64,000 nt of DNA from a virus, in the IMG/VR virus record IMGVR_UViG_3300043788_000101, positions 26,917-90,916 of that record; one strand, 5' to 3'. The position numbers were made by a program, and so were the translations under genes. Below, piece by piece: positions 41,551 through 50,538 of this stretch. The number at the start of each line of letters is the position of its first letter. The stretch's first letter is position 1. The notes under the pieces were generated by a model. It did no database searches. It was given only the letters and a program-made list of their open reading frames with translations, and was not told the origin of the DNA.

Positions 41551-42279
41551 ATGAGACTCAATCACGTCATCGCGATCGAAAAGGGCGTCAAGAATCAGAG
41601 CAACGTCGAGATCACTGCGGCCTACCACGAGCTGCAGAAGGTCGCGCTGTTCAGCGGCATCGCGCGCACGTACGAACCGAAGGACGAGGACGGAGACAAG
41701 TTCCCGCCCGAGCATCAGAAGGTCCAGCGGCTCGCCAACGATCTGCTCGCGTTCACCGCGACGTCGATGAGCAAGTACTGGGACATCACGCTCACGAAGG
41801 ACCGGGCCAACTGCGACGCGCGCGCCAACGTCACCGTCGACGGCAAGGTCATCCTGAAAGATGCGCCGGTCACGTTTCTCATCTTCCTCGAGAAGCAGCT
41901 CGGGGACCTCTCGACGATGGTCAAGAAACTGCCGACGCTCGACGCGGGCGAGACCTGGAAGCACGACGCGTCGACGAACGCCTACGCGACCGAGTCGAGC
42001 GAGACCATCAAGACCAAGAAGGTGCCCAAGGCCTTCGTCAAGGCGCAGGCGACCAAGGAGCACCCGGCGCAGGTCGAGACGTTCACCGAGGACATCGTCA
42101 TCGGCAAGTGGCGCACGGTCAAGTACAGCGGAGCCATCCCTGCGCAGCGCATCGCGGAGATCCTCGAGCGCATCACCAAGCTCCAGGCGGCCGTCAAGTT
42201 CGCCCGCGAGGACGCCAACTCGATCGACGTCCAAGACCTTCACATCGGAAAGACGGTCTTCGACCACCTCTTCGAGTGA
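41551..42279 (+). CDS. conserved hypothetical protein upstream of RNA region
   Basis: 242 aa, ATG with TAGGAGGG. Starts 'MRLNHVIAIEKGVKNQSNVE', contains 'HQKVQRLANDLLAFTATSMS', strands 'VTVDGKVILKDAPVTFLIFL' and an internal disordered loop. Similar proteins occur widely in phages and actinobacteria (recollection) without known function. Its position directly before the split tRNAs and rtcB makes a link to RNA metabolism possible, but nothing in the sequence shows it. Confidence 0.65.
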   Translation: MRLNHVIAIEKGVKNQSNVEITAAYHELQKVALFSGIARTYEPKDEDGDKFPPEHQKVQRLANDLLAFTATSMSKYWDITLTKDRANCDARANVTVDGKVILKDAPVTFLIFLEKQLGDLSTMVKKLPTLDAGETWKHDASTNAYATESSETIKTKKVPKAFVKAQATKEHPAQVETFTEDIVIGKWRTVKYSGAIPAQRIAEILERITKLQAAVKFAREDANSIDVQDLHIGKTVFDHLFE

Positions 42280-42723: not shown

Positions 42724-43911
42724 ATGGCAGCTGCCATCAAAGAGTGGACGAACGGCGTTCTGGTCGAGGCGTCGGCGCGCAAGCAGCTCGAAGAGACGGC
42801 GAGCCTCCACATCGTCTGGCCGCACCTCGCGGTCATGCCGGACGTTCACTGGGGGATGGGCTCGACTGTCGGCTCCGTCGTGCCGACGCGAGGCGCCATC
42901 ATCCCGGCCTGCGTGGGCGTCGACCTCGGGTGCGGCATGTCGGCCGTGCGGACGTCGCTCTCGTCGTCGGCTCTGCAGGATAACGGCCAGGCCATTCAAG
43001 ACGCGATCGAACGCGCGGTCCCGCACGGGCGCACCGATGACGGCGGGCCCAACGACCGCGGGGCCTGGCGCAACGTGCCGGACGACGTCGCGGCAACGTG
43101 GGCCGGCCTCTTCGAGACGTTCGCGACCCTGCCGCAGGCGTCGCAGAAGCTCGACACCAAGCGGCAGGCCCAGCAGCTCGGGACGCTCGGGACCGGCAAT
43201 CACTTCGTCGAGGTCTGCCTCGATGAGGCCGATCGCGTGTGGGTGATGCTTCACTCGGGCTCGCGCGGGATCGGTAACCGCATCGGCTCGACGTACATCG
43301 CGGCAGCGAAGCGTCGCTGCGAGCGCGACGGCGTGCAGCTCCCGAACAGCGATCTCGCGTGGCTGCCGGAGGGCACCCCGGAGTTTTCCGAGTACGTCGA
43401 GGCGGTCGGCTGGGCGCAGAACTACGCTCGGCTCAATCGGGAGCTGATGCAGATCCACGTCCTCTCCGCGCTCCGCTCGATGTTCCCAGACATGGGCGAC
43501 AGCTGGGCGGTCGTGTCGTGCCATCACAACTACGTCGCGCGCGAGCGGCACTTCGACGAGGACCTCTGGATCACGCGCAAGGGCGCGGTCTCCGCGAAGC
43601 TCGGGCAGCTGGGAATCATCCCGGGCGCGATGGGCAGGCGGAGCTACATCGTGCGCGGCAAGGGCAACCCGGAGAGCTTCGAGACGTGCAGCCACGGGGC
43701 TGGGCGCGTCATGAGCCGAGGAGCCGCCAAGAAGGCGATCACGCTGGAGCAGCACGCCGAGGACACGGCCGGCGTCTTCTGCCGCAAGGACGCCGACGTG
43801 CTCGACGAGAGCCCGCGGGCGTATAAATCGATCGACGCGGTCATGGCGGCGCAAACGGATCTTGTCGAGGTCGTGCATGTCTTGCGGGCCGTCGTGTGTG
43901 TAAAAGGCTAA
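42724..43911 (+). CDS. rtcB: RtcB family RNA ligase
   Basis: 395 aa, ATG with GTAGGAGG. Characteristic RtcB motifs: 'GVDLGCGMSAVRTS' (metal Asp/Cys), GTGNHF, 'MLHSGSRGIGNRIG', 'SWAVVSCHHNYVARE' (metal His), 'RSYIVRGKGNPESF' and CSHGAGR with the guanylylated His. RtcB joins 2',3'-cyclic phosphate (or 3'-phosphate) to 5'-OH RNA ends with GTP and Mn. Archease is not seen in the window. Flanked by split tRNAs upstream and a 36-gene tRNA array downstream, so tRNA joining or repair is the likely job. Long reverse-strand frame over it is a shadow. Confidence 0.95.
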   Translation: MAAAIKEWTNGVLVEASARKQLEETASLHIVWPHLAVMPDVHWGMGSTVGSVVPTRGAIIPACVGVDLGCGMSAVRTSLSSSALQDNGQAIQDAIERAVPHGRTDDGGPNDRGAWRNVPDDVAATWAGLFETFATLPQASQKLDTKRQAQQLGTLGTGNHFVEVCLDEADRVWVMLHSGSRGIGNRIGSTYIAAAKRRCERDGVQLPNSDLAWLPEGTPEFSEYVEAVGWAQNYARLNRELMQIHVLSALRSMFPDMGDSWAVVSCHHNYVARERHFDEDLWITRKGAVSAKLGQLGIIPGAMGRRSYIVRGKGNPESFETCSHGAGRVMSRGAAKKAITLEQHAEDTAGVFCRKDADVLDESPRAYKSIDAVMAAQTDLVEVVHVLRAVVCVKG

Positions 43912-43920
43912 AATGAGCGC

Positions 43921-44457
43921 ATGCATTCATGCATGACAGACGCCCGCGCAGCAGGCGCAAGCAAGTACTTTACTGGCCGGCCGTGCACACGCGGTCATCT
44001 CTCGGTGCGGTACGCCCAGAGTGGGTGCTGCCTGGCCTGTCAAGCGTTCCTGCAAAAGCGGGACAGGCGGACCCCGAAAGGTTCAGCCCGCAACAAGGCT
44101 TATGTGCGAATGCTTCGCGAGGAGCGGCCATGGTATTTGCTGTGGCAGTCCGCCAAGGCACGTGCCAAGGAGCGCGGCGTACTGTTCACGCTAACCGCCG
44201 CTGACGTACAAGCGGTGTGGCCTTCAGACGGGAGATGCCCAGCGCTCGGTGTCGAGCTACGTAGGAGCACCTCTGGAGACCATCGCTATGCGCCAGAGTC
44301 TCCTTCGATTGACAAGATCGTTCCTCGGCTTGGATACGTGCCCGGTAACATTGCCGTGATCAGCATGAAGGCGAACCGTCTGAAGCACGACGAAACGTCC
44401 CCGGACGCTCTGCGCCTCGTCGCAGACTGGATCGAGCGCGTCTGCGTGAAGGGCTAA
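43921..44457 (+). CDS. HNH-type endonuclease (short family) downstream of rtcB
   Basis: 178 aa, ATG start. CxRGHLS and CCLACQAF zinc pair, then 'CPALGVELRR', 'SPSIDKIVPRLGYVPGNIAV' and SMKANRLKHDE, a His-Me-like family in which Asp-Lys-Ile replaces the usual Asp-His. Its end (RVCVKG-stop) copies the end of RtcB (VVCVKG-stop), suggesting insertion at the rtcB 3' end. Confidence 0.7.
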   Translation: MHSCMTDARAAGASKYFTGRPCTRGHLSVRYAQSGCCLACQAFLQKRDRRTPKGSARNKAYVRMLREERPWYLLWQSAKARAKERGVLFTLTAADVQAVWPSDGRCPALGVELRRSTSGDHRYAPESPSIDKIVPRLGYVPGNIAVISMKANRLKHDETSPDALRLVADWIERVCVKG

Positions 44458-44678: not shown

Positions 44679-44761
44679 GCATCTCGATCAGCACAAGGGT
44701 ATGTGTGGCGCGTTGTAACCGCGTTGTCTTTGACGGAGCCGTTCGACTCGGCCGGGGTGCA
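44679..44761 (+). tRNA. tRNA-Tyr(GTA)
   Basis: Acceptor GCATCTC/GGGGTGC with two G-U pairs, D-arm GCAC-AAGGGTAT-GTGT, anticodon GTA at 44715-44717, long variable arm GTC-TTT-GAC as expected for class II Tyr, T-loop TTCGACT. No encoded CCA. Confidence 0.7.
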
Positions 44762-44816: not shown

Positions 44817-44888
44817 GGAGGCGTAACTCAAGCAGCAGAGACCGAGCTTTTACCTCGCGTGATCTCCGTGCAAGTCGGAGCGCCTCCA
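44817..44888 (+). tRNA. tRNA-Lys(TTT)
   Basis: Acceptor GGAGGCG/CGCCTCC perfect, near-standard D-arm (ACTC ... GAGA), anticodon TTT at 44849-44851, T-arm CTCCG-TGCAAGT-CGGAG. A 16-codon ORF with a good ribosome site (ATG 44776) ends in its first bases. Confidence 0.85.
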
Positions 44889-44896
44889 CGACACGC

Positions 44897-44968
44897 GCGA
44901 TGCTGATGTATCGGTTCGCATAGCAGATTCTTACTCTGTCCGGCTCGGTTCGATTCCGAGGCATCGCA
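44897..44968 (+). tRNA. tRNA-Lys(CTT)
   Basis: Acceptor GCGATGC/GCATCGC perfect, D-arm ATG-TATCGGTTCG-CAT, anticodon CTT at 44930-44932, T-arm CTCGG-TTCGATT-CCGAG. No encoded CCA. Confidence 0.9.
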
Positions 44969-44973
44969 CTCAC

Positions 44974-45045
44974 TGGGGTCCGTCTTGGAGACCGACAACG
45001 CTCTGAACGTTGCGCGCGAGAGTCCGATTCTCTCGACCCCATCCA
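44974..45045 (+). tRNA. tRNA-Gln(CTG), compact D-arm
   Basis: Acceptor TGGGGTC/GACCCCA, D-arm GTCT-TGG-AGAC with a 3-nt loop, anticodon CTG at 45003-45005 on CAACG/CGTTG, T-arm GAGAG-TCCGATT-CTCTC, discriminator T, CCA encoded. Confidence 0.85.
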
Positions 45046-45157
45046 CGACGCACAAGGCGTCGACGTTCTTTGAAAACCTGACGACCCCTCGACGCGCACT
45101 TCGGTGCGGCGGTCCCGGTCGACGACACGACGCGCGAGTGAAGTAGCTCGCGCACTT

Positions 45158-45230
45158 TGCAGGGAAGGCCAAGTGGTGAGCCGAATAGCTGTTAACTATT
45201 TGCGAGCGGGTTCGAGCCCCGCCCCTGCAG
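45158..45230 (+). tRNA. tRNA-Asn(GTT)
   Basis: Acceptor TGCAGGG/CCCTGCA, normal D-arm with GG, anticodon GTT at 45191-45193, T-arm GCGGG-TTCGAGC-CCCGC. Preceded by a perfect 7-bp hairpin GCGCGAG/CTCGCGC and a TTCG-loop hairpin in the 112-nt gap after tRNA-Gln. Confidence 0.92.
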
Positions 45231-45235
45231 CGAAC

Positions 45236-45307
45236 GCCCAGAGGTTCCAGCGAACAGCACCGTTTCGTATTCGGTGCAGCTCGAGGCAGCATCGAGTCTG
45301 GGCTCCA
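45236..45307 (+). tRNA. tRNA-Thr(CGT), compact D-arm, atypical T-loop
   Basis: Acceptor GCCCAGA/TCTGGGC, D-arm GTTC-CAGC-GAAC (4-nt loop), anticodon CGT at 45266-45268 with T-T at the loop base, T-arm CTCGA-GGCAGCA-TCGAG lacking the TTC motif, CCA encoded. Confidence 0.75.
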
Positions 45308-45308
45308 C

Positions 45309-45385
45309 GTCGCATTCGTCTAGCAGGCCCAGGACGCCAGATTCTCAATCCGGCAACACGAGTTCAACTCTCGTATGCGACGCCA
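45309..45385 (+). tRNA. tRNA-Glu(CTC)
   Basis: Acceptor GTCGCAT/ATGCGAC, Glu-like D-arm (TCGTCTAGCAGGC), anticodon CTC at 45344-45346 with one A-C pair in the stem, T-loop TTCAACT, CCA encoded. Confidence 0.92.
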
Positions 45386-45386
45386 G

Positions 45387-45458
45387 GCCTCGTTCGTCTA
45401 CCAGCTAGGATGCTGCGTTTTCACCGCGGCGAAGCGGGCGCGACACCCGCACGAGGCA
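45387..45458 (+). tRNA. tRNA-Glu(TTC)
   Basis: Acceptor GCCTCGT/ACGAGGC, Glu-like D-arm (TCGTCTACC), anticodon TTC at 45420-45422, T-arm GCGGG-CGCGACA-CCCGC with an atypical loop. The convergent HNH frame runs 38 bases into this gene. Confidence 0.85.
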
Positions 45459-46170
45459 CCTTCGGCTGACGCTTCCTTGGGGCATGTCCGAGCCGCGAGA
45501 GCAGATACTTCTTCACGGCGTTGTCTGACATACCAAGTCTTTTGGCGACCGCTCGGTAGCTCGTCATCGAGACTTCGATGGCCAACACGTCCGCTGGCGG
45601 CCAGACGATCTTCTGGTGGCGTCCTCCGTCACACTTGGCGCATCTAGTGGATGAGCGAAAGATGGGATTTCCGCAGTCCACACATCTATTCTTCGGCCTA
45701 GAGTAACGACCCTTCAAAGCGTTTCCCGCAAAGTTTTTCGTCTGCGAGTGACAGTTCGGGCATAGAATTCGGAGATTCAAAAGACGATTGTCTGTCGGGC
45801 ACCCGTTGACATGATCCATCTGCAGGGTCAGCGGCTCGTCATTCCACACCGGGCCGAGACCGCACATCACACAGCGTTCCTCAAGCAGTCCCTCTCGGAT
45901 AAGGCGACGACGTAAAGTAGGACCGCCAGTGCCAGACGCGTTCTCTACGAGAAGCGATGAAGTCGGGCGCTTCTTTGGGTCAACGGATCGACCATGCGCC
46001 TTCCCAACGAAGTGGAGCGTACTCAAGTGCAGACGTCGTATATGACAACTGATGTTTGCGTAGTTTCCTGGGCTGACTGACAGCCCGAGCGAACGAAGCA
46101 CGTCCGACTTCGTTACGCAGGCCGCCACGGCGTGGCGTAACTGGTCGTCAGACCATCGTCTCTTAGACAT
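45421..46170 (-). CDS. HNH endonuclease with C-terminal HTH, inside tRNA array
   Basis: 249 aa from ATG 46170, no clear ribosome site. N-terminal 'WSDDQLRHAVAACVTKSDVL' domain, HNH core (CVMCGLGPVW, 'LTLQMDHVNGCPTDNRLLNL', CPNCHSQTKNF), zinc pair CVDCGN/CAKCDG, and a C-terminal HTH (SYRAVAKRLGMSDNAVKKYL). Family well known in phages. The frame continues antisense into tRNA-Glu(TTC), so the last 13 residues derive from the tRNA sequence. Lower GC than surroundings; likely mobile. Confidence 0.88.
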   Translation of the reverse strand: MSKRRWSDDQLRHAVAACVTKSDVLRSLGLSVSPGNYANISCHIRRLHLSTLHFVGKAHGRSVDPKKRPTSSLLVENASGTGGPTLRRRLIREGLLEERCVMCGLGPVWNDEPLTLQMDHVNGCPTDNRLLNLRILCPNCHSQTKNFAGNALKGRYSRPKNRCVDCGNPIFRSSTRCAKCDGGRHQKIVWPPADVLAIEVSMTSYRAVAKRLGMSDNAVKKYLLSRLGHAPRKRQPKVPRAGVAPASPR

Positions 46171-46208
46171 TGACTAAATGTACCGCACTGACGTAATGCG
46201 TGTCAATC

Positions 46209-46281
46209 GGCTTGCGAGCGAGTGGGGTCATCGCGGCCCACTGAAAATGGGCAGAATTCCGTTCAACTCGGAAGCAAGCCA
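46209..46281 (+). tRNA. tRNA-Phe(GAA)
   Basis: Acceptor GGCTTGC/GCAAGCC, D-arm GCGA-GTGGGGTCA-TCGC, anticodon GAA at 46243-46245, T-arm TTCCG-TTCAACT-CGGAA. First of 22 tRNAs packed almost without spacers. Confidence 0.92.
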
Positions 46282-46282
46282 C

Positions 46283-46358
46283 CGGAGCCTAGCCTAGCAG
46301 TCCAGGCACTTGTTTCGGGAACAAGACCAGGCGGGTGCGACTCCCGCGGCTCCGACCA
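46283..46358 (+). tRNA. tRNA-Pro(CGG)
   Basis: Acceptor CGGAGCC/GGCTCCG, D-arm GCCT-AGCAGTCC-AGGC, anticodon CGG at 46316-46318, T-loop TGCGACT, CCA encoded; its terminal CA is shared with the next gene. Confidence 0.9.
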
Positions 46359-46427
46359 GCGTGTAGCAAAGTGGCCATGCACTCGCTTTGGGAGCGAGAG
46401 ACGTCCGTCCGAATCGGACCACGCTGA
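46357..46427 (+). tRNA. tRNA-Pro(TGG)
   Basis: Acceptor CAGCGTG/CACGCTG, starting within the CCA of the preceding tRNA. D-arm GCA-AAGTGGCCA-TGC, anticodon TGG at 46389-46391, T-arm GTCCG-TCCGAAT-CGGAC. Confidence 0.88.
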
Positions 46428-46433
46428 CTGTAT

Positions 46434-46506
46434 GGTGTTCGTGTTGTAGTGGTCTGCATGGCTGGATGTGACCCAGCCGGTACGGGTCCGATCCCCGTCG
46501 AACACC
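46434..46506 (+). tRNA. tRNA-His(GTG)
   Basis: G-1 at 46434 opposite C73, acceptor GTGTTCG/CGAACAC, anticodon GTG at 46468-46470 on GCTGG/CCAGC, T-arm ACGGG-TCCGATC-CCCGT. The G-1:C73 pair fits His identity. Confidence 0.9.
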
Positions 46507-46510
46507 CTAT

Positions 46511-46582
46511 CTGCTCGTCCTGCCGGACGCAGGCGACTCGCTCCTATCGAGTTCGTGCTGGGTCCGACTCCCAGCGAGCAGA
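46511..46582 (+). tRNA. tRNA-Arg(CCT)
   Basis: Acceptor CTGCTCG/CGAGCAG, D-arm CCTG-CCGGACG-CAGG, anticodon CCT at 46543-46545, T-arm CTGGG-TCCGACT-CCCAG. Confidence 0.9.
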
Positions 46583-46592
46583 CAAAACGTTT

Positions 46593-46665
46593 GCCGTCAT
46601 TGTGCCACTGGCTGTGGCAGGCCGGTTGTCTCCCGGTTGAGCCGGATCGAAACCGGATGGCGGCG
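46593..46665 (+). tRNA. tRNA-Asp(GTC)
   Basis: Acceptor GCCGTCA/TGGCGGC with one G-U, D-arm TGCCA-CTGGCTG-TGGCA, anticodon GTC at 46628-46630, T-loop ATCGAAA with one mismatch in the T-stem, short variable loop. Slightly degenerate. Confidence 0.75.
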
Positions 46666-46671
46666 CCGCGT

Positions 46672-46743
46672 GCGCCTCAGGTCATGGTGACCAATTTGGC
46701 TCCAAACCAATAGGCGTCGGTTCGACTCCGACGGGGCGTGCCA
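46672..46743 (+). tRNA. tRNA-Trp(CCA), compact D-arm
   Basis: Acceptor GCGCCTC/GGGGCGT with G-U pairs, D-arm GGTCA-TGG-TGACC (3-nt loop), anticodon CCA at 46702-46704 in loop CTCCAAA, T-arm GTCGG-TTCGACT-CCGAC, CCA end encoded. Confidence 0.85.
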
Positions 46744-46744
46744 C

Positions 46745-46815
46745 GGGCTGTTCGTCCAACGCGAAGACGCTGCTCTTGCAAAGCAGAGATGAGGGTTGAA
46801 CTCCCTCACGGTCCA
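46745..46815 (+). tRNA. tRNA-Ala(TGC)
   Basis: Acceptor GGGCTGT/ACGGTCC with two G-U pairs (no G3:U70 check beyond sequence), D-arm GTC-CAACGCGAA-GAC without GG, anticodon TGC at 46777-46779, T-arm GAGGG-TTGAACT-CCCTC. Confidence 0.85.
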
Positions 46816-46819
46816 CAAT

Positions 46820-46889
46820 GCCGTTCACGCCGTGGAGGCGAGCAGCCGTTGGTATCGGTTGCGATGGGTTTCGATCACCCAGAGCGGCT
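46820..46889 (+). tRNA. tRNA-Thr(GGT), compact D-arm
   Basis: Acceptor GCCGTTC/GAGCGGC, D-arm CGCC-GTGGA-GGCG (5-nt loop), anticodon GGT at 46851-46853, T-arm TGGGT-TTCGATC-ACCCA. Confidence 0.85.
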
Positions 46890-46891
46890 CC

Positions 46892-46959
46892 GCCGATTCG
46901 TCCAAGGGACAGCGGGAGCTTGTATCTCCCTCGGGCCAGGGCAGTACTGGCAGTCGGCT
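46892..46959 (+). tRNA. tRNA-Thr(TGT), compact D-arm, atypical T-loop
   Basis: 68 nt. Acceptor GCCGATT/AGTCGGC, D-arm GTCC-AAG-GGAC (3-nt loop without GG), anticodon TGT at 46921-46923 on GGGAG/CTCCC, T-arm GCCAG-GGCAGTA-CTGGC. Same odd T-loop as Thr(CGT) and Gly(TCC). Confidence 0.8.
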
Positions 46960-46965
46960 CTAGTT

Positions 46966-47037
46966 GCGGGTGACGCTCAGCAGCGGGTGCGCCTTCCAAG
47001 CGTTACCGACCGTGGGCAGCACACGGCATCCGCTCCA
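46966..47037 (+). tRNA. tRNA-Gly(TCC), compact D-arm, atypical T-loop
   Basis: Acceptor GCGGGTG/CATCCGC, D-arm CGCT-CAGC-AGCG (4-nt loop), anticodon TCC at 46995-46997 with a weak outer stem, T-arm CCGTG-GGCAGCA-CACGG, CCA encoded. Confidence 0.8.
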
Positions 47038-47038
47038 C

Positions 47039-47109
47039 GCGGGGTATTCGGAAAGTGACGAGGCTTGAGTGCCACTCAAGCATTGCCGGAGCATTACCGG
47101 CACCCCGCT
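47039..47109 (+). tRNA. tRNA-Gly(GCC)
   Basis: Acceptor GCGGGGT/ACCCCGC, D-arm TCG-GAAAGTGA-CGA, anticodon GCC at 47071-47073 on CTTGA/TCAAG, T-arm GCCGG-AGCATTA-CCGGC with an atypical loop. Confidence 0.85.
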
Positions 47110-47114
47110 CGAGT

Positions 47115-47186
47115 GAGCCCATGATCAAGCGGTCATCGTGCGCAGCAAACGCACGCGGCTCGGTGCGATTCCGAGTGGGCTCTCCA
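47115..47186 (+). tRNA. tRNA-Cys(GCA), A33
   Basis: Acceptor GAGCCCA/TGGGCTC, anticodon GCA at 47145-47147 in loop CAGCAAA, where position 33 is A instead of the near-universal U, T-arm CTCGG-TGCGATT-CCGAG, CCA encoded. Confidence 0.85.
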
Positions 47187-47187
47187 C

Positions 47188-47259
47188 GCTCTCGTCCTGG
47201 CAGCCAGGCATGCCGCTTCTATCGGCGTTGGCTCCGTGCAACTCGGAGCGAGAGCACCA
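47188..47259 (+). tRNA. tRNA-Arg(TCT), compact D-arm
   Basis: Acceptor GCTCTCG/CGAGAGC, D-arm CCTGG-CAG-CCAGG (3-nt loop), anticodon TCT at 47218-47220, T-arm CTCCG-TGCAACT-CGGAG, CCA encoded. Confidence 0.87.
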
Positions 47260-47260
47260 T

Positions 47261-47330
47261 CTGCCTGTCCGGTGGATCCGGGCCAGTCCCTCCGAAGGAT
47301 CGGTTCGCGGTTCGACTCCGCGCAGGCAGA
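47261..47330 (+). tRNA. tRNA-Arg(CCG), compact D-arm
   Basis: Acceptor CTGCCTG/CAGGCAG, D-arm CCGG-TGGAT-CCGG (5-nt loop), anticodon CCG at 47292-47294, T-arm CGCGG-TTCGACT-CCGCG. Confidence 0.85.
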
Positions 47331-47336
47331 CAACTC

Positions 47337-47406
47337 GGGCTCGCCAGTGGACCTGGCGGAGACGCTACGAACGTTTCTTGCGAAGATTCGATTTCTTCCG
47401 AGCCCA
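47337..47406 (+). tRNA. tRNA-Arg(ACG), compact D-arm
   Basis: Acceptor GGGCTCG/CGAGCCC, D-arm CCAG-TGGAC-CTGG (5-nt loop), anticodon ACG at 47367-47369 (A34 would need deamination by the host TadA), T-arm GAAGA-TTCGATT-TCTTC. Confidence 0.87.
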
Positions 47407-47407
47407 C

Positions 47408-47481
47408 TGCAGCGTGGAGAAGTGGCCTATCTCGCGTGGCTCATAACCACGAGACCTCTGGTTCAAATCCAGACGCTGCTA
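47408..47481 (+). tRNA. tRNA-Met(CAT), first copy
   Basis: Acceptor TGCAGCG/CGCTGCT with a 1-72 T-T mismatch, D-arm GAGA-AGTGGCCTA-TCTC, anticodon CAT at 47442-47444 on CGTGG/CCACG, T-loop TTCAAAT. The 1-72 mismatch recalls initiators, but the three G-C anticodon-stem pairs are absent; could be Met or Ile2. Confidence 0.85.
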
Positions 47482-47482
47482 C

Positions 47483-47550
47483 GCCGGCGCCGCGTGGCGC
47501 GAAGCGGTTTTCATACGACCGCGACGACGGTCCGATTCCGTCCGCCGGCA
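47483..47550 (+). tRNA. tRNA-Met/Ile2(CAT), second copy, compact D-arm
   Basis: 68 nt. Acceptor GCCGGCG/CGCCGGC, D-arm CGCG-TGG-CGCG (3-nt loop), anticodon CAT at 47512-47514 on CGGTT/GACCG, T-arm GACGG-TCCGATT-CCGTC. Met or lysidine-modified Ile2 cannot be told apart by eye. Confidence 0.82.
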
Positions 47551-47554
47551 CGAC

Positions 47555-47627
47555 CTCTCGCGAGTGAGCTAGCGAACACCGCGCTCCTACAAAGCGATGC
47601 CGCAGGGTGCAATCCCCTGGCGAGAGA
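47555..47627 (+). tRNA. tRNA-Val(TAC), C33
   Basis: Acceptor CTCTCGC/GCGAGAG, D-arm GTG ... CAC, anticodon TAC at 47588-47590 in loop CCTACAA with C at position 33, T-arm CAGGG-TGCAATC-CCCTG. Confidence 0.85.
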
Positions 47628-47628
47628 C

Positions 47629-47699
47629 CCGAGCGTGCGTTCGGTCAACGCAGGATCCCTTATAAGAATCCGATTCGGGTCCGACTCCCGACGCTCGGA
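47629..47699 (+). tRNA. tRNA-Ile(TAT), compact D-arm
   Basis: Acceptor CCGAGCG/CGCTCGG, D-arm GCGTT-CGGTC-AACGC (long stem, 5-nt loop), anticodon TAT at 47661-47663 with one stem mismatch, T-arm TCGGG-TCCGACT-CCCGA. Confidence 0.83.
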
Positions 47700-47700
47700 C

Positions 47701-47774
47701 GCGGGACGAGTGAGCCAGTGAACACACCATCTCGACAAGATGGCCAATGCTCGGAGCGACACCGAGGTCCCGCA
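47701..47774 (+). tRNA. tRNA-Val(GAC), C33
   Basis: Acceptor GCGGGAC/GTCCCGC, D-arm nearly identical to Val(TAC), anticodon GAC at 47734-47736 in loop TCGACAA (C33 again), T-arm CTCGG-AGCGACA-CCGAG. Confidence 0.87.
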
Positions 47775-47778
47775 CAAC

Positions 47779-47853
47779 GCGCCATGACGGGTCGGTTACC
47801 ATTTCGATCCTGATAAGATCGGAGACCAGTTTCGACTACTGGATGGCGCACCA
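47779..47853 (+). tRNA. tRNA-Ile(GAT)
   Basis: Acceptor GCGCCAT/ATGGCGC, short D-loop around CGGTT, anticodon GAT at 47812-47814 on CGATC/GATCG, T-arm CCAGT-TTCGACT-ACTGG, CCA encoded. Last gene of the dense plus-strand array. Confidence 0.92.
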
Positions 47854-47872
47854 ACGTGCTAGACGACACCTC

Positions 47873-48199
47873 ATGAAGACGAGGCCGAGCACGACGCCAC
47901 TTGACCCCGGCGTACTCAAAGCCGCAGAGGCATGGGACGCAATCGCACGCATGCACGGCTATAACGAGATGGCCAAAGAAGCGAAGACGTTAGGCCAGAG
48001 AGTCTACTGCCGTATGGCAAGGGATGCCGCGTGCGAGGAGGCGAAGCAGCTCGGCGCGGACATTACGCGCACGGAGGTCGGTGGCGATGCCGTGATGACC
48101 ATCGACGAGGTAGCGCCGCACATCGTCTTCAAAGCGGACGACATCGAGATGATGCGCGAGGCCGTCCGAGTATTTGACCTCGAGCACCCGAAGCCGTAA
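47873..48199 (+). CDS. small hypothetical protein within tRNA region
   Basis: 108 aa from ATG 47873; longer in-frame starts lie inside tRNA genes. Helical N-terminal half ('DAIARMHGYNEMAKEAKTLG') and a strand-helix C-terminus (PHIVFKADDIEMMREAV). Function unknown. Confidence 0.6.
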   Translation: MKTRPSTTPLDPGVLKAAEAWDAIARMHGYNEMAKEAKTLGQRVYCRMARDAACEEAKQLGADITRTEVGGDAVMTIDEVAPHIVFKADDIEMMREAVRVFDLEHPKP

Positions 48200-48212
48200 C
48201 CTTTGCCGCGTC

Positions 48213-48740
48213 ATGGAACCTCGAACGCTCGTGCTCACGCCCCAGATGGCGCCCATCCGCATCGCGACGTGGGAGGAGTCGGTCGTCCTCGTCTGGCAGG
48301 GCAAGGCTGACGCGCTCGAACTCTACGAGGCGACGGTGTCCTCGCCGAGCGTGACGCTGCAGGTCCCAGCGGTGGTGCGGCTGCACAAGTCGGTGCACAT
48401 GCACAAAAATGGAGTAAAGTTCTCGCGCGTGAACGTGCTATCTCGCGATGGCCTCCGTTGCTGCTACTGCGGCGAGCGCAAGAAGGCGCGTGAACTGAAC
48501 TACGACCACGTCATCCCGCGGTCGCGCGGCGGTAAGACGACGTGGACTAATATCGTCACAGCTTGTTTGGCGGACAACCGCCGCAAGGGCAACCGCACGC
48601 CGCAGGAGGCCGGGATGCGGATGCACTTCAAGCCGTACGTTCCGACGACGCTGGTGCGTCAGCAACCGCTACTCTTTCTCATCGGCGATGCGCCGGGGCA
48701 GTGGGGTCCGTACCTCGGCGAGGCGGCTCAGAGCGCGTAA
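48213..48740 (+). CDS. HNH endonuclease family protein
   Basis: 175 aa from ATG 48213. N-terminal domain ('TWEESVVLVWQGKADALELY'), then FSRVNVLSRDGLRCCYCGE, 'LNYDHVIPRSRGGKTTW', NIVTACLADNRRKGNRTP. In related proteins the last motif is CxxCN; here it is CLADN, so the fourth zinc cysteine is missing. Located between tRNA clusters. Confidence 0.83.
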   Translation: MEPRTLVLTPQMAPIRIATWEESVVLVWQGKADALELYEATVSSPSVTLQVPAVVRLHKSVHMHKNGVKFSRVNVLSRDGLRCCYCGERKKARELNYDHVIPRSRGGKTTWTNIVTACLADNRRKGNRTPQEAGMRMHFKPYVPTTLVRQQPLLFLIGDAPGQWGPYLGEAAQSA

Positions 48741-48747
48741 GATTTCT

Positions 48748-48833
48748 GGAGCCTAGTGGGCAATGGCGCCCAACCCGGTTCGAACCCGGGACCACGGTGA
48801 GGAATCGTGACTGTTCGATCCAGTTAGGCTCCG
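48748..48833 (+). tRNA. tRNA-Ser(CGA)
   Basis: Class II. Acceptor GGAGCCT/AGGCTCC, D-arm TGGGC-AATGGC-GCCCA, anticodon CGA at 48781-48783 on CCCGG/CCGGG, variable-arm stem CACG/CGTG, T-loop TTCGATC. Confidence 0.88.
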
Positions 48834-48839
48834 CAACTT

Positions 48840-48922
48840 GGAAGACGAATCGGGCAGGGCCCGAGCCGGTTTGCTAAACCGTGCGGCGCGCAAGCGCTGG
48901 GGATCAGGACCTCCGTCTTCCG
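48840..48922 (+). tRNA. tRNA-Ser(GCT), compact D-arm
   Basis: Class II. Acceptor GGAAGAC/GTCTTCC, D-arm TCGGGC-AGG-GCCCGA (6-bp stem, 3-nt loop), anticodon GCT at 48873-48875, variable-arm GCGC-GCAA-GCGC, T-loop ATCAGGA (atypical). Confidence 0.82.
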
Positions 48923-48937
48923 CTATCGCGCGCGTCG

Positions 48938-49207
48938 TCAGTACCCGAACACGTTGCGCCCTCCAGGCGTGCTGTCGGTTCGGCGATCGAACGTCTCGCG
49001 AGTCTGAGGCAGCGCCGCAAGCTTCGCGTCGACGTCGCGCGCCATCTCGACGACGAGATCCGCGATGTCTCGCATGGCTTGCGCGACCTCGTACGTGAAC
49101 CTCTGGACCTCGGTCCCATCCTGCGTGAAGTACTGGATCCGCTTTGCGATGTCGGCGGCCTTCGCTTCGTATGACAGTCGCACGATGTTCGACGGGTCGA
49201 TCGGCAT
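48938..49207 (-). CDS. small helical hypothetical protein
   Basis: 89 aa, ATG start. Helical ('SYEAKAADIAKRIQYFTQDG', 'RDIADLVVEMARDVDAKLAA') with a C-terminal 'GGRNVFGY'. Lies between plus- and minus-strand tRNAs. Function unknown. Confidence 0.6.
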   Translation of the reverse strand: MPIDPSNIVRLSYEAKAADIAKRIQYFTQDGTEVQRFTYEVAQAMRDIADLVVEMARDVDAKLAALPQTRETFDRRTDSTPGGRNVFGY

Positions 49208-49230
49208 GCGGGCGATTCTAGCATCGACGG

Positions 49231-49306
49231 TCCCACGAGCGAGATTCGAACTCGCACTGTCCTCCTTCTGAGGGAGTCGACTCCTACCAAGTTGGTCTAC
49301 CGTGGG
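49231..49306 (-). tRNA. tRNA-Leu(CAG), short variable loop
   Basis: Acceptor CCCACGG/TCGTGGG, D-arm with a 13-nt loop containing GG, anticodon CAG at 49268-49270 in loop CTCAGAA, T-arm GCGAG-TTCGAAT-CTCGC. Variable loop only about 5 nt although bacterial tRNA-Leu is normally class II. Confidence 0.78.
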
Positions 49307-49309
49307 TCG

Positions 49310-49394
49310 TGCGCACTAGCGGAGTCGAACCGCTACGGACTTTCGTCCCCACGCTTCTCAGGCGCGGCTGTCTTCCGAATTTCAGCAAGTGCGC
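49310..49394 (-). tRNA. tRNA-Leu(GAG)
   Basis: Class II. Acceptor GCGCACT/AGTGCGC, anticodon GAG at 49357-49359 on CGCGC/GCGTG, variable-arm GGAC-GAAA-GTCC, T-arm AGCGG-TTCGACT-CCGCT. Confidence 0.9.
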
Positions 49395-49395
49395 G

Positions 49396-49465
49396 TTCGG
49401 GTTGAAGGTGACGATCCTTCGCGCGCTGGATTCAAAGTCCAGTCGTCCCACCGGGGAGAACCCGA
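49396..49465 (-). tRNA. tRNA-Gln(TTG), compact D-arm
   Basis: Acceptor TCGGGTT/AACCCGA, D-arm TCCC-CGGT-GGGA (4-nt loop), anticodon TTG at 49433-49435 on CTGGA/TCCAG, T-arm GAAGG-ATCGTCA-CCTTC (atypical loop). Confidence 0.85.
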
Positions 49466-49466
49466 G

Positions 49467-49541
49467 TGCCTGACCTGGGATTCGAACCCAGAGACCCCAA
49501 CTTTTGAAGGTGGGAGGTTTACCGATTACCGTCAGCCAGGC
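49467..49541 (-). tRNA. tRNA-Leu(CAA), short variable loop
   Basis: Acceptor GCCTGGC/GTCAGGC, anticodon CAA at 49504-49506 in loop TTCAAAA with one C-T in the stem, T-arm CTGGG-TTCGAAT-CCCAG. Variable loop 5 nt, again unlike normal bacterial Leu. Confidence 0.78.
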
Positions 49542-49887
49542 GTGTCTCGACTCGAACGCTTCTATCGAAGCGCGAGGAGTAACAAGCGTTGGCCTAGGCG
49601 AAAGCGGCTCACGGGCTTCAATCTATTCGCGGGCTTGGCTGCGGTCAAGCCGTGGCGTTTGGCAAAATGTGTTCGCACGATGCGAAAGAATCTTGACGGC
49701 CTCGGCCGAGTCTGGCTAGGGTGACCATTCCGTCGCGGCCCCCCAGGCCGGGGGCGATCGATGCGCAGGTTCCTCCCCCGGTCCCTCGCATGGTCGATTC
49801 CGGCCTAGGGAGTCGCGGCAAGAAGGACCGGGGATACATGGGACGTCGACGAGACGGTGGCGGCTTGCGCGCTTGGGTGGGGGTCCT
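49542..49887. other. intergenic region between tRNAs and replication genes
   Basis: No convincing gene. It holds a 6-bp hairpin CGCTTC-TATC-GAAGCG near 49560, a candidate plus-strand promoter TTGACG (49693-49698) N18 TAGGGT, and a GC hairpin GCCCCC/GGGGGC (49738-49755) just past the predicted start, possibly an mRNA 5' stabiliser. Short reverse frames here look spurious. Confidence 0.4.
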
Positions 49888-50538
49888 ATGCACGCCATCA
49901 ATTTGATCCGCCCGCTCGGGTACTATGTTCCGTCCAAAAGACGATCGGGCCAGGCACGTGTGCGTCATGAGCCAGAAGACGATTGCGAGGACTGCGACCG
50001 CGCGCGACGCCTAGGAATATGGTCGGTCTGCACATTCGATCCCGATGAGGCATGTCGGATCAGGTACCTGCGCGAACTCGACAAGGCGCCTCCGCGCTGG
50101 ATGGGGTTGGGCAATCCGAAAGATCCGAAGCCGCTCGCGTACATCGAGTCTCGCGCCTGGCTCGAGTGGAAGCGGTACCATCGACGACCTCACTGCGAGA
50201 GCGCAAGGGTCGCCTACGCTATCAGATGCGCAGTCATTGAGCGCGACGGCTACGTGTGCTGGCTTTGCCGAGGGCGCGTTCTACGAAACGACGTTGACCT
50301 CGACCACGTGATCCCGCGATCGAAGGGCGGAGCGACCACGCTGGAGAATCTCCGCGTCGCCCATTCGTCCTGCAACCGCAGTCGCAGCAATCGAGACGTC
50401 GCCGAGCTGGACCAGTTCAGGGCTCCGAAGCTCGTCGCCAACATCAAGCGCCATCAAGCTCGCGCCACTCAAAAACAGGATGTCTCCCATGCAGACGAAT
50501 GTAACGTGACTGAAACCGTTACGCAAGGTAATGTGTAA
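49888..50538 (+). CDS. HNH endonuclease
   Basis: 216 aa from ATG 49888. Basic N-terminal region with a CEDCDRARR pair, then the HNH core 'RDGYVCWLCRGRVLRNDVDL', DHVIPRSKGGATTLENL, SSCNRSRSN. Its 3' end contains GTAACG/CGTTAC repeats ahead of the replication gene. Confidence 0.85.
   Translation: MHAINLIRPLGYYVPSKRRSGQARVRHEPEDDCEDCDRARRLGIWSVCTFDPDEACRIRYLRELDKAPPRWMGLGNPKDPKPLAYIESRAWLEWKRYHRRPHCESARVAYAIRCAVIERDGYVCWLCRGRVLRNDVDLDHVIPRSKGGATTLENLRVAHSSCNRSRSNRDVAELDQFRAPKLVANIKRHQARATQKQDVSHADECNVTETVTQGNV

Follow-up and report, generated by a model that had tools for sequence, protein, structure and literature searches.

A compact tRNA core was previously known from tRNA-Pyl, one mitochondrial tRNA and the laboratory construct ZtRNA; here it appears in many isoacceptors. 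According to PMC7609411 and PMC6337575, tRNA-Pyl of Methanosarcina and Desulfitobacterium combines a 0-1 nt connector between acceptor and D-stem with a small D-loop and a 6-bp anticodon stem. The second of these sources also describes ZtRNA (synthetic) and mitochondrial tRNA-Ser(UCN/UGA) as tRNA-Pyl-like scaffolds with the canonical GG/UUCRA contact between D-loop and T-loop, and reports that ZtRNA, whose scaffold is close to that of the compact tRNAs, is active in E. coli (PMC6337575). Both elbow pairs of that contact, G18-Psi55 and G19-C56, have been called invariant or conserved (PMC6337575, PMC7912444).

The compact phage tRNAs share the short connector and small D-loop of tRNA-Pyl, and many of them its longer anticodon stem. 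However, tRNA-Pyl lacks GG and TPsiC, reads UAG and has a 3-nt variable region, whereas the compact tRNAs of our locus have a variable region of 4-5 nt, ordinary anticodons and an apparently retained contact. The short connector and small D-loop of ZtRNA and the mitochondrial tRNA-Ser(UCN) are likewise typical of them, but they differ from this pair in being natural, in comprising many isoacceptors, in their longer variable region, and in using additional contacts (AG/GC, GG/CC, GA/UU and GC/UG, written as positions 18-19/55-56). Two further tRNAs of the locus, Ser(GCT) and Asp, share a 6-bp D-stem and a 3-5 nt loop with tRNA-Sec, whose hallmarks are a 13-bp acceptor/T branch and a UCA anticodon; unlike tRNA-Sec, they have the standard 7+5 branch (12 bp) and sense anticodons. 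Also of interest are allo-tRNAs and the suppressor tRNAs with a D/T-loop helix that the Steinberg laboratory has reportedly described.

As an array, the locus resembles the long tRNA operons of cyanobacteria (Anabaena trn and Nostoc plasmid arrays), with about 25 tRNAs and a nearby HNH gene. These are plasmid-borne or chromosomal and differ in having few compact tRNAs each: AG/GC tRNAs occur in plasmid arrays of Nostoc sp. ATCC 53789 and PCC 7524, and compact Arg(ACG) in Laspinema/Oscillatoria arrays. The actinophages NiceHouse, GodonK and Racecar have similarly large arrays with a DUF7873 gene and one compact tRNA each, but their D-arms are almost all normal.

An array of 35 tRNAs and its neighbours

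Within the window, the 64,000-nucleotide stretch of viral DNA analysed here, a cloverleaf scan with gap-filling placed 35 tRNAs between 44817 and 49541, 31 on the plus strand and four on the minus strand. They have 7/5/5 stems, in some with one stem mismatch, and sense anticodons, and none of the 35 has a CTA anticodon. At the working threshold the scan found nothing in the remaining window or in 40 Markov shuffles of the array stretch, and across 2.19 Mb it gave 942 matches against four in reversed sequence; loci L002-L006 stand outside that total and were scanned separately, none yielding three or more matches. The multi-locus scan has limits that accommodate 28 of the 35, and seven (Thr(CGT), Gly(TCC), Cys, Val(TAC), Val(GAC), Ser(GCT) and Leu(CAA), five of them with G55) were read by eye. 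A probable tRNA-Tyr(GTA), scoring 24.0 and so under the working threshold, is outside the count of 35; an odd Tyr resembling it occurs in loci L126 and L131.

Standard finders recover much less of the array. ARAGORN called 23 tRNAs and missed 12 of the 35, and its misses comprise nine of the 11 tRNAs with G55 as against three of the remaining 24. Rfam reported nine tRNAs in the whole window at gathering score, and a lax scan of the array stretch gave 11 RF00005 matches only, with most compact tRNAs below the gathering score; such scores weaken the match to the model and leave the tRNA reading intact. Compared with named phages by BLAST, the array matched single tRNAs only, and no direct homologue of the array was found through its HNH genes. 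The RtcB RNA ligase gene beside the array, which has counterparts in or beside the arrays of L090, L092, L096, L098, L112 and L124, is circumstantially in keeping with tRNA damage. In a cyanobacterium, a trn array that responds to translational stress is described as having one repressor in common with rtcB (PMC10272220).

Compact D-arms within and beyond the array

The preliminary description named 14 tRNAs with perfect D-stems closed by tiny loops, and in 13 of them the best fold indeed closes a 3-5 nt loop with a perfect D-stem of 4-6 bp (Table 1). The exception is Ile(GAT), where arms of 3 bp/5 nt and 4 bp/8 nt compete and 1181 of 2000 shuffles equal the D-arm. A TGG loop had been counted four times, but the exact 3-nt loop occurs in three tRNAs only (Gln(CTG), Trp and Ile2(CAT)). 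Loops of at most 5 nt extend beyond the 14 to Arg(CCT), Asp, His and Cys, for a total of 17 of the 35 with Ile(GAT) excluded. Refolding into normal D-loops can be set aside: for seven of the 14, the tested frame offers no D-loop of 7-13 nt closed by three or more perfect pairs, and in the other seven such loops are possible but weaker. RNAfold predictions for 15 compact window tRNAs include the compact D-hairpin in 13, all except Arg(CCT) and Arg(CCG). A lone 4-bp hairpin within 15-17 GC-rich bases is common, appearing in 5-20% of shuffles for most of these tRNAs, and is too frequent to serve as evidence singly; we therefore rely on the D-hairpins of all 14 combined (p ~5e-7 from shuffles) and on comparison.

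Table 1. Features of the tRNA array and its surroundings (D-arm loops in lower case; elbow contacts as positions 18-19/55-56)
Feature	Position	Strand	Details
DUF7873 gene	41551..42279	+	PF25283; occurs in tRNA arrays of other phages
RtcB RNA ligase gene	42724..43911	+	PF01139, 1.7e-122; upstream of array
Probable tRNA-Tyr(GTA)	44679..44760	+	D-stem CACA/TGTG, loop agggta; D-arm by eye
Compact tRNA-Gln(CTG)	44974..45041	+	GTCT tgg AGAC; T-loop TCCGATT (GG/CC)
Compact tRNA-Thr(CGT)	45236..45303	+	GTTC cagc GAAC; T-loop GGCAGCA (AG/GC)
tRNA-His	46435..46505	+	TGTAG tggt CTGCA; T-loop TCCGATC (GG/CC); G-1:C73 retained
tRNA-Arg(CCT)	46511..46581	+	CCTGC cggac GCAGG; T-loop TCCGACT (GG/CC), identical in L128 homologue
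tRNA-Asp	46593..46664	+	6-bp D-stem, TGCCAC tggct GTGGCA
Compact tRNA-Trp	46672..46739	+	GGTCA tgg TGACC
tRNA-Ala(TGC)	46745..46814	+	D-loop caacGCgaa, T-loop TTGAACT (C19-G56 swap); G3:U70 retained
Compact tRNA-Thr(GGT)	46820..46888	+	CGCC gtgga GGCG
Compact tRNA-Thr(TGT)	46892..46958	+	GTCC aag GGAC; T-loop GGCAGTA (AG/GC)
Compact tRNA-Gly(TCC)	46966..47033	+	CGCT cagc AGCG; T-loop GGCAGCA (AG/GC)
Compact tRNA-Cys	47115..47182	+	TGATC aagc GGTCA; T-loop TGCGATT (AG/GC)
Compact tRNA-Arg(TCT)	47188..47255	+	CCTGG cag CCAGG; T-loop TGCAACT (AG/GC)
Compact tRNA-Arg(CCG)	47261..47329	+	(T)CCGG tggat CCGG(G); RNAfold favours different fold
Compact tRNA-Arg(ACG)	47337..47405	+	CCAG tggac CTGG; no connector; 26-44 pair
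Compact second CAT tRNA, probably Ile2	47483..47549	+	CGCG tgg CGCG; T-loop TCCGATT (GG/CC)
tRNA-Ile(TAT)	47629..47698	+	D-stem 5-6 bp, loop cggtc; T-loop TCCGACT
tRNA-Ile(GAT)	47779..47849	+	Ambiguous D-arm
tRNA-Ser(GCT)	48840..48921	+	TCGGGC agg GCCCGA, like tRNA-Sec
Compact tRNA-Gln(TTG)	49397..49465	-	TCCC cggt GGGA; T-loop ATCGTCA

Taking as compact any tRNA whose positions 8-26 span at most 17 nt, we find 52 among 578 over the phage loci, usually with a 3-5 nt loop on a 4-5 bp D-stem that is set off from the acceptor stem by at most one nucleotide. Positions 26 and 44 form a Watson-Crick pair in 37 of the 48 whose variable arm is short (CG 18, GC 10, TA 5, AT 4), as against 68 of 427 other tRNAs; Arg(ACG) accounts for 13 of the 48, 12 of them paired, and the remainder are paired in 25 of 35. 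In the window itself only five of nine scored compact tRNAs have the pair. T at the first position (U8) is found in 11 of the 48 and in 373 of the 427 others, so the normal 8-14 contact would be absent from most compact tRNAs. Compact Arg(ACG) is shared, with covarying stems, by 16 viral and seven bacterial stretches, and over 18 distinct rows of its alignment 26-44 is CG in eight, GC in five, UA in three and unpaired in two; D-stem conservation in alignment A1 was imposed by the search pattern and has no evidential value. Of the bacterial stretches matching the pattern, seven of 13 lie inside tRNA arrays; matches in L138, L141, L142, L146, L149 and L150 showed no tRNA and were taken as chance. 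The compact D-arms and their shared trend are real, and 26-44 pairing, D/T-loop covariation and retained charging determinants point to structural selection. The design is, however, not unique to this array, being present in many phage arrays and some cyanobacterial ones.

Matched changes at the elbow

The preliminary description implied that such small loops forfeit the GG that contacts the T-loop. GG is present in nine of the 13 clear compact cases, and the other four (Thr(CGT), Thr(TGT), Gly(TCC) and Arg(TCT)) have AG in the D-loop together with G55 in the T-loop. Positions 18-19 covary with 55-56 as GG/UC, GG/CC, AG/GC, GA/UU (four tRNAs: L115 twice, L122 and L135) and GC/UG (the Ala tRNAs of the window and L128). 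Several compact tRNAs pair GG with UUCRA, and others have GG/CC or AG/GC; the window's Thr(TGT) has AG/GC where its L128 homologue has GG/UC. Within the window, G55C56 occurs without GG in six of six scored tRNAs and Y55C56 with GG in 21 of 21. GG is absent from 16 of 20 G55C56 and four of 512 Y55C56 tRNAs in other phage loci, a set that includes L051, a partial source of the rule, with four of those 16, and from ten of 11 and one of 92, respectively, in bacterial arrays. The cross-table covers 569 of the 578 tRNAs, omitting nine without a called D-stem; four rows scored as UC without GG look like GG absorbed into the called D-stem, and the Fisher tests count related tRNAs as independent. The exceptions are L017 Asp (GG with GGCAGCA), L120 Glu (AGGG with GGCAGAA) and L154 Ile, which lacks AG though its T-loop is GGCAGTA. 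In T-loops that begin GGC, positions 54 and 58 are altered as well.

This matching led us to reject a lost elbow contact, and the earlier inference of such a loss was wrong: the D-loop/T-loop contact is presumably made in the array tRNAs. Because it is kept or rebuilt by matched changes, these tRNAs look like working adaptors of a rare alternative architecture and not broken ones.

Function and alternative explanations

Judged by E. coli identity rules, 29 of the 35 window tRNAs have a discriminator base appropriate to their amino acid, a number that none of 100000 permutations reached (mean 16.1). For the compact tRNAs the figure is 12 of 17, reached in 59 of 100000 permutations. Gln and Thr deviate from the rule. 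Identity elements are also retained in Gly (U73 with C2:G71), Pro (C1:G72), Gln (U1:A72) and Thr (C2:G71), as in Ala and His (Table 1). It is thus hardly credible that decaying pseudo-tRNAs have been mistaken for structures. The 12 ARAGORN misses and the few Rfam reports would suit decay, but the misses concentrate on G55, which indicates detector bias, and the stems are near-perfect; we rejected pseudogenes on scan specificity, discriminator fit and the Arg(ACG) covariation.

Sequence comparison establishes the predicted secondary structure, the 26-44 pairing, the elbow matching and the retention of discriminators, and a normal L fold, charging and ribosomal use of the compact tRNAs would be expected. 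We consider it probable that the array encodes functional elongator tRNAs built on an alternative core, likely a substitute set for when host tRNAs are damaged. In the compact class, positions 8-26 would be reduced to 14-17 nt, a 3-5 nt loop on a 4-5 bp D-stem with a 0-1 nt connector would present the contact dinucleotide, and a sixth anticodon-stem pair (26-44), usual in this class, would absorb the slack. Positions 18-19 would then dock on 55-56, a change on one side being matched on the other. Most likely, the near-complete phage set would sustain translation once host tRNAs are cut or depleted, and the core would be another structural solution at which fast-evolving mobile arrays arrived, one that may need fewer host modifications, with no Psi55 site in 17 of the 35.

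The same core could conceivably reflect neutral drift with compensation, in which weakly constrained, rapidly evolving mobile arrays accumulate matched loop changes without advantage, as in mitochondria. Several solutions side by side in one array, differing L128 homologues and the dispersal of arrays among diverse phages and plasmids lend this account some plausibility, though compact Arg(ACG), with its covarying stems across viral and bacterial stretches, is more persistent than drift would predict. Selection for escape from host tRNA-cleaving defences, with an altered D-arm and elbow blocking nuclease binding so that phage tRNAs survive, seems unlikely. An RtcB gene adjoins the array, and changes in the anticodon loop are reported or predicted to protect phage tRNAs from tRNases (PMC10264068). 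However, the known cases concern the anticodon loop, D-loop and D-arm go unmentioned in the main text of that paper, no nuclease is linked to the D-arm, and the anticodon loops in the window are mostly ordinary-looking. We are similarly sceptical that the core serves independence from host modification (TruB, Dus, TrmH, s4U8) through loops that fold unmodified, for example by Watson-Crick G18-C55 and G19-C56 pairs. Position 55 lacks U in 17 of 35 window tRNAs as against 26 of the 550 from other phage loci, and loss of U55 would by itself prevent Psi55 formation. U8 is mostly missing from compact tRNAs; yet many of these retain U54 and U55, and AG/GC is not clearly stronger than GG/UC.

Titles and abstract openings in the literature searched, mostly outside subscription journals, mentioned no phage tRNA with a compact D-arm or A18-G55. 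Across many phage tRNAs and some bacterial ones, matched substitutions at both elbow pairs amount to a direct comparative test of the elbow, and the Nostoc plasmid arrays bring the question of elbow and compact core within reach of cultured strains. Since finders miss a biased subset, as ARAGORN does with G55, phage tRNAs are probably undercounted in defence studies. The occurrence of the compact core in many isoacceptors means that phages may hold orthogonal scaffolds for code expansion. We tentatively suggest that phage and plasmid arrays might hold a natural class of elongator tRNAs for most amino acids that standard finders mostly overlook, with a ZtRNA-like core and an elbow rewritten either as A18-G55 plus G19-C56 or by A-U and C-G at 19-56, working without U8, a Psi55 site or a normal D-loop, and that host enzymes would neither modify nor easily destroy this set.

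Contents of the tRNA array and its detection

The source contig is a viral sequence of 90,916 bases, of which the window spans positions 26917-90916. A cloverleaf scan with gap-filling finds 35 tRNAs for 19 amino acids at 44.8-49.5 kb of the window, and a probable tRNA-Tyr would bring coverage to 20. The scan demands near-perfect acceptor, anticodon, and T stems but no D-loop GG; it gives no matches elsewhere in the window and none in 40 shuffles, and across 2.19 Mb of loci, L002-L006 excepted, it gives 942 matches versus 4 in reversed sequence. By comparison, ARAGORN reports 23 tRNAs in the array and a lax Rfam scan 11. ARAGORN overlooks 9 of the 11 tRNAs with G55 versus 3 of the 24 others (window 44817-49541), and a skew of this kind means that phage tRNA counts are biased.

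Several individual tRNAs are unusual in other ways. The variable region of both Leu(CAG) and Leu(CAA) is 5 nt long, where bacterial tRNA-Leu usually has a long arm, and similar short-arm Leu tRNAs occur in two phage loci (L051, L084). In Val(GAC), the conserved U33 is replaced by C33 (anticodon loop tcgacaa). A U1-U72 mismatch in Met(CAT) recalls initiator tRNA. ARAGORN also labels as ‘Pyl’ two CTA-anticodon tRNAs, one in the phage array L084 and one in the Nostoc plasmid array L152, which are possible amber readers.

Coordinates of genes and individual tRNAs (window positions unless a locus is named)
Feature	Position	Strand
DUF7873 gene	41551-42279	
RtcB gene	42724-43911	
HNH or endonuclease VII-like gene	43921-44457	
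Probable tRNA-Tyr	44679-44760	
HNH or endonuclease VII-like gene	45421-46170	-
Met(CAT)	47408-47480	
Val(GAC)	47701-47773	
HNH or endonuclease VII-like gene	48174-48740	
Leu(CAG)	49232-49306	-
Leu(CAA)	49468-49541	-
HNH or endonuclease VII-like gene	49873-50538	
CTA-anticodon tRNA	L084:3295-3361	
CTA-anticodon tRNA	L152:2708-2779	

Compact D-arms and the elbow contact

The preliminary description listed 14 tRNAs with compact D-arms, and in 13 of these a perfect D-stem of 4-6 bp does close on a loop of 3-5 nt; the D-arm of the remaining one, Ile(GAT), is ambiguous. Arg(CCT), Asp, His, and Cys add further small-loop arms, and RNAfold concurs with a compact D-arm in 13 of 15 tRNAs tested. Two designs stand side by side in the array: in one, positions 8-26 are cut to at most 17 nt, while in the other (Ser(GCT) and Asp) they keep 18-21 nt, with a 5-6 bp stem and tiny loop that resemble tRNA-Sec.

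The same description implied that compact tRNAs lack the elbow contact. Instead, the contact is kept, as D-loop 18-19 and T-loop 55-56 are matched in the window and in other loci. Scored by eye over all 35 window tRNAs, the D-loop carries GG in 17/17 tRNAs with U55C56 and 6/6 with C55C56, whereas all 11 with G55 carry AG and no loop GG; in Cys and Thr(TGT) a GG is present, but inside the D-stem. The last tRNA, Ala(TGC), places GC opposite U55G56. When this rule, derived from the window and L051, was counted over other phage loci (L051 included), GG was missing in 16/20 G55C56 tRNAs versus 4/512 with a pyrimidine at 55 followed by C56. Bacterial arrays, a set wholly independent of the rule's derivation, gave 10/11 versus 1/92. 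Two Ala tRNAs (window and L128) pair GC with UG, and four tRNAs (Arg(CCT) and Trp of L115, Ala of L122, Cys of L135) pair GA with UU; 19-56 therefore stays Watson-Crick through substitution. Exceptions to loop matching are L017 Asp, L120 Glu, L140 Asp, L154 Ile, and L133 Arg(CCG), where GG lies opposite UU.

The T-loop covaries internally as well. Over all loci of the 942-match scan, the 54-58 pair is T-A in 523 tRNAs, A-A in 13, A-T in 13, and G-G in 12, and non-T54 co-occurs with A60 in 37/45, such that T-A goes with a pyrimidine at 60 and A-A, A-T, or G-G with A60. Eukaryotic initiator tRNA is a known case of A54-A58 (PMC7912444). Covariation argues strongly for the structures proposed for the array tRNAs, and it bears out the earlier suspicion of something unusual and selected here. 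As to why the D-arms shrank, the change may reflect drift with compensation, independence from modification, or escape from nucleases.

Recurrence of the compact scaffold

Across loci, 52 of 578 distinct tRNAs are compact by the 17-nt measure, a frequency enriched in the comparison set because L108-L123 were retrieved by a compact Arg(ACG) pattern. The window has 9/28, followed by L128 (7/21), L123 (6/25), L051 (4/24), and L116 (4/22), with fewer in other loci. Positions 26-44 are Watson-Crick in 37/48 compact tRNAs with short variable arms versus 68/427 normal tRNAs, and in 25/35 of the compact ones once the 13 Arg(ACG) are removed; the Arg(ACG) alignment itself shows CG, GC, and UA at these positions. 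In L128, taken from a 117-kb contig, homologues retain compact arms whose stem sequences differ, and Thr(TGT) pairs AG with GC in the window but GG with UC in L128. AG/GC tRNAs also occur in Nostoc plasmid arrays, as Glu(CTC) in L151-L153 and Ile(GAT) in L151 and L152. The compact D-arm and rewritten elbow thus extend beyond the window array.

In published descriptions of the tRNA-Pyl scaffold, the connector has 0-1 nucleotide, the D-loop is small, and the anticodon stem runs to 6 bp (PMC6337575, PMC7609411). ZtRNA, selected in E. coli, joins this scaffold to a normal contact (PMC6337575), and a ZtRNA-type scaffold is also reported for bovine mitochondrial tRNA-Ser (PMC6337575, PMC7609411). 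Because the phage compact tRNAs differ from these in variable-region length and contact types, we call them ZtRNA-like rather than members.

Gene context and probable function

HNH genes both flank and interrupt the array, and the four HNH or endonuclease VII-like genes are possibly homing endonucleases that aid tRNA-gene movement. Several related contigs likewise carry RtcB, an RNA ligase gene, in or close to their tRNA arrays; in Anabaena, a single repressor is described as governing rtcB and a 26-tRNA operon that is induced by translational stress (PMC10272220). DUF7873 (PF25283) genes, present in the window, L081-L084, and L105-L107, sit inside tRNA arrays of several distinct phages, which suggests a tRNA-linked role.

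The discriminator base fits the amino acid in 29/35 window tRNAs, a score that 0 of 100,000 permutations reached, and in 12/17 compact tRNAs (59 of 100,000), where the misfits are two Gln and three Thr. Other charging determinants are also retained. Judged from these sequence features, the array tRNAs are likely used in translation.
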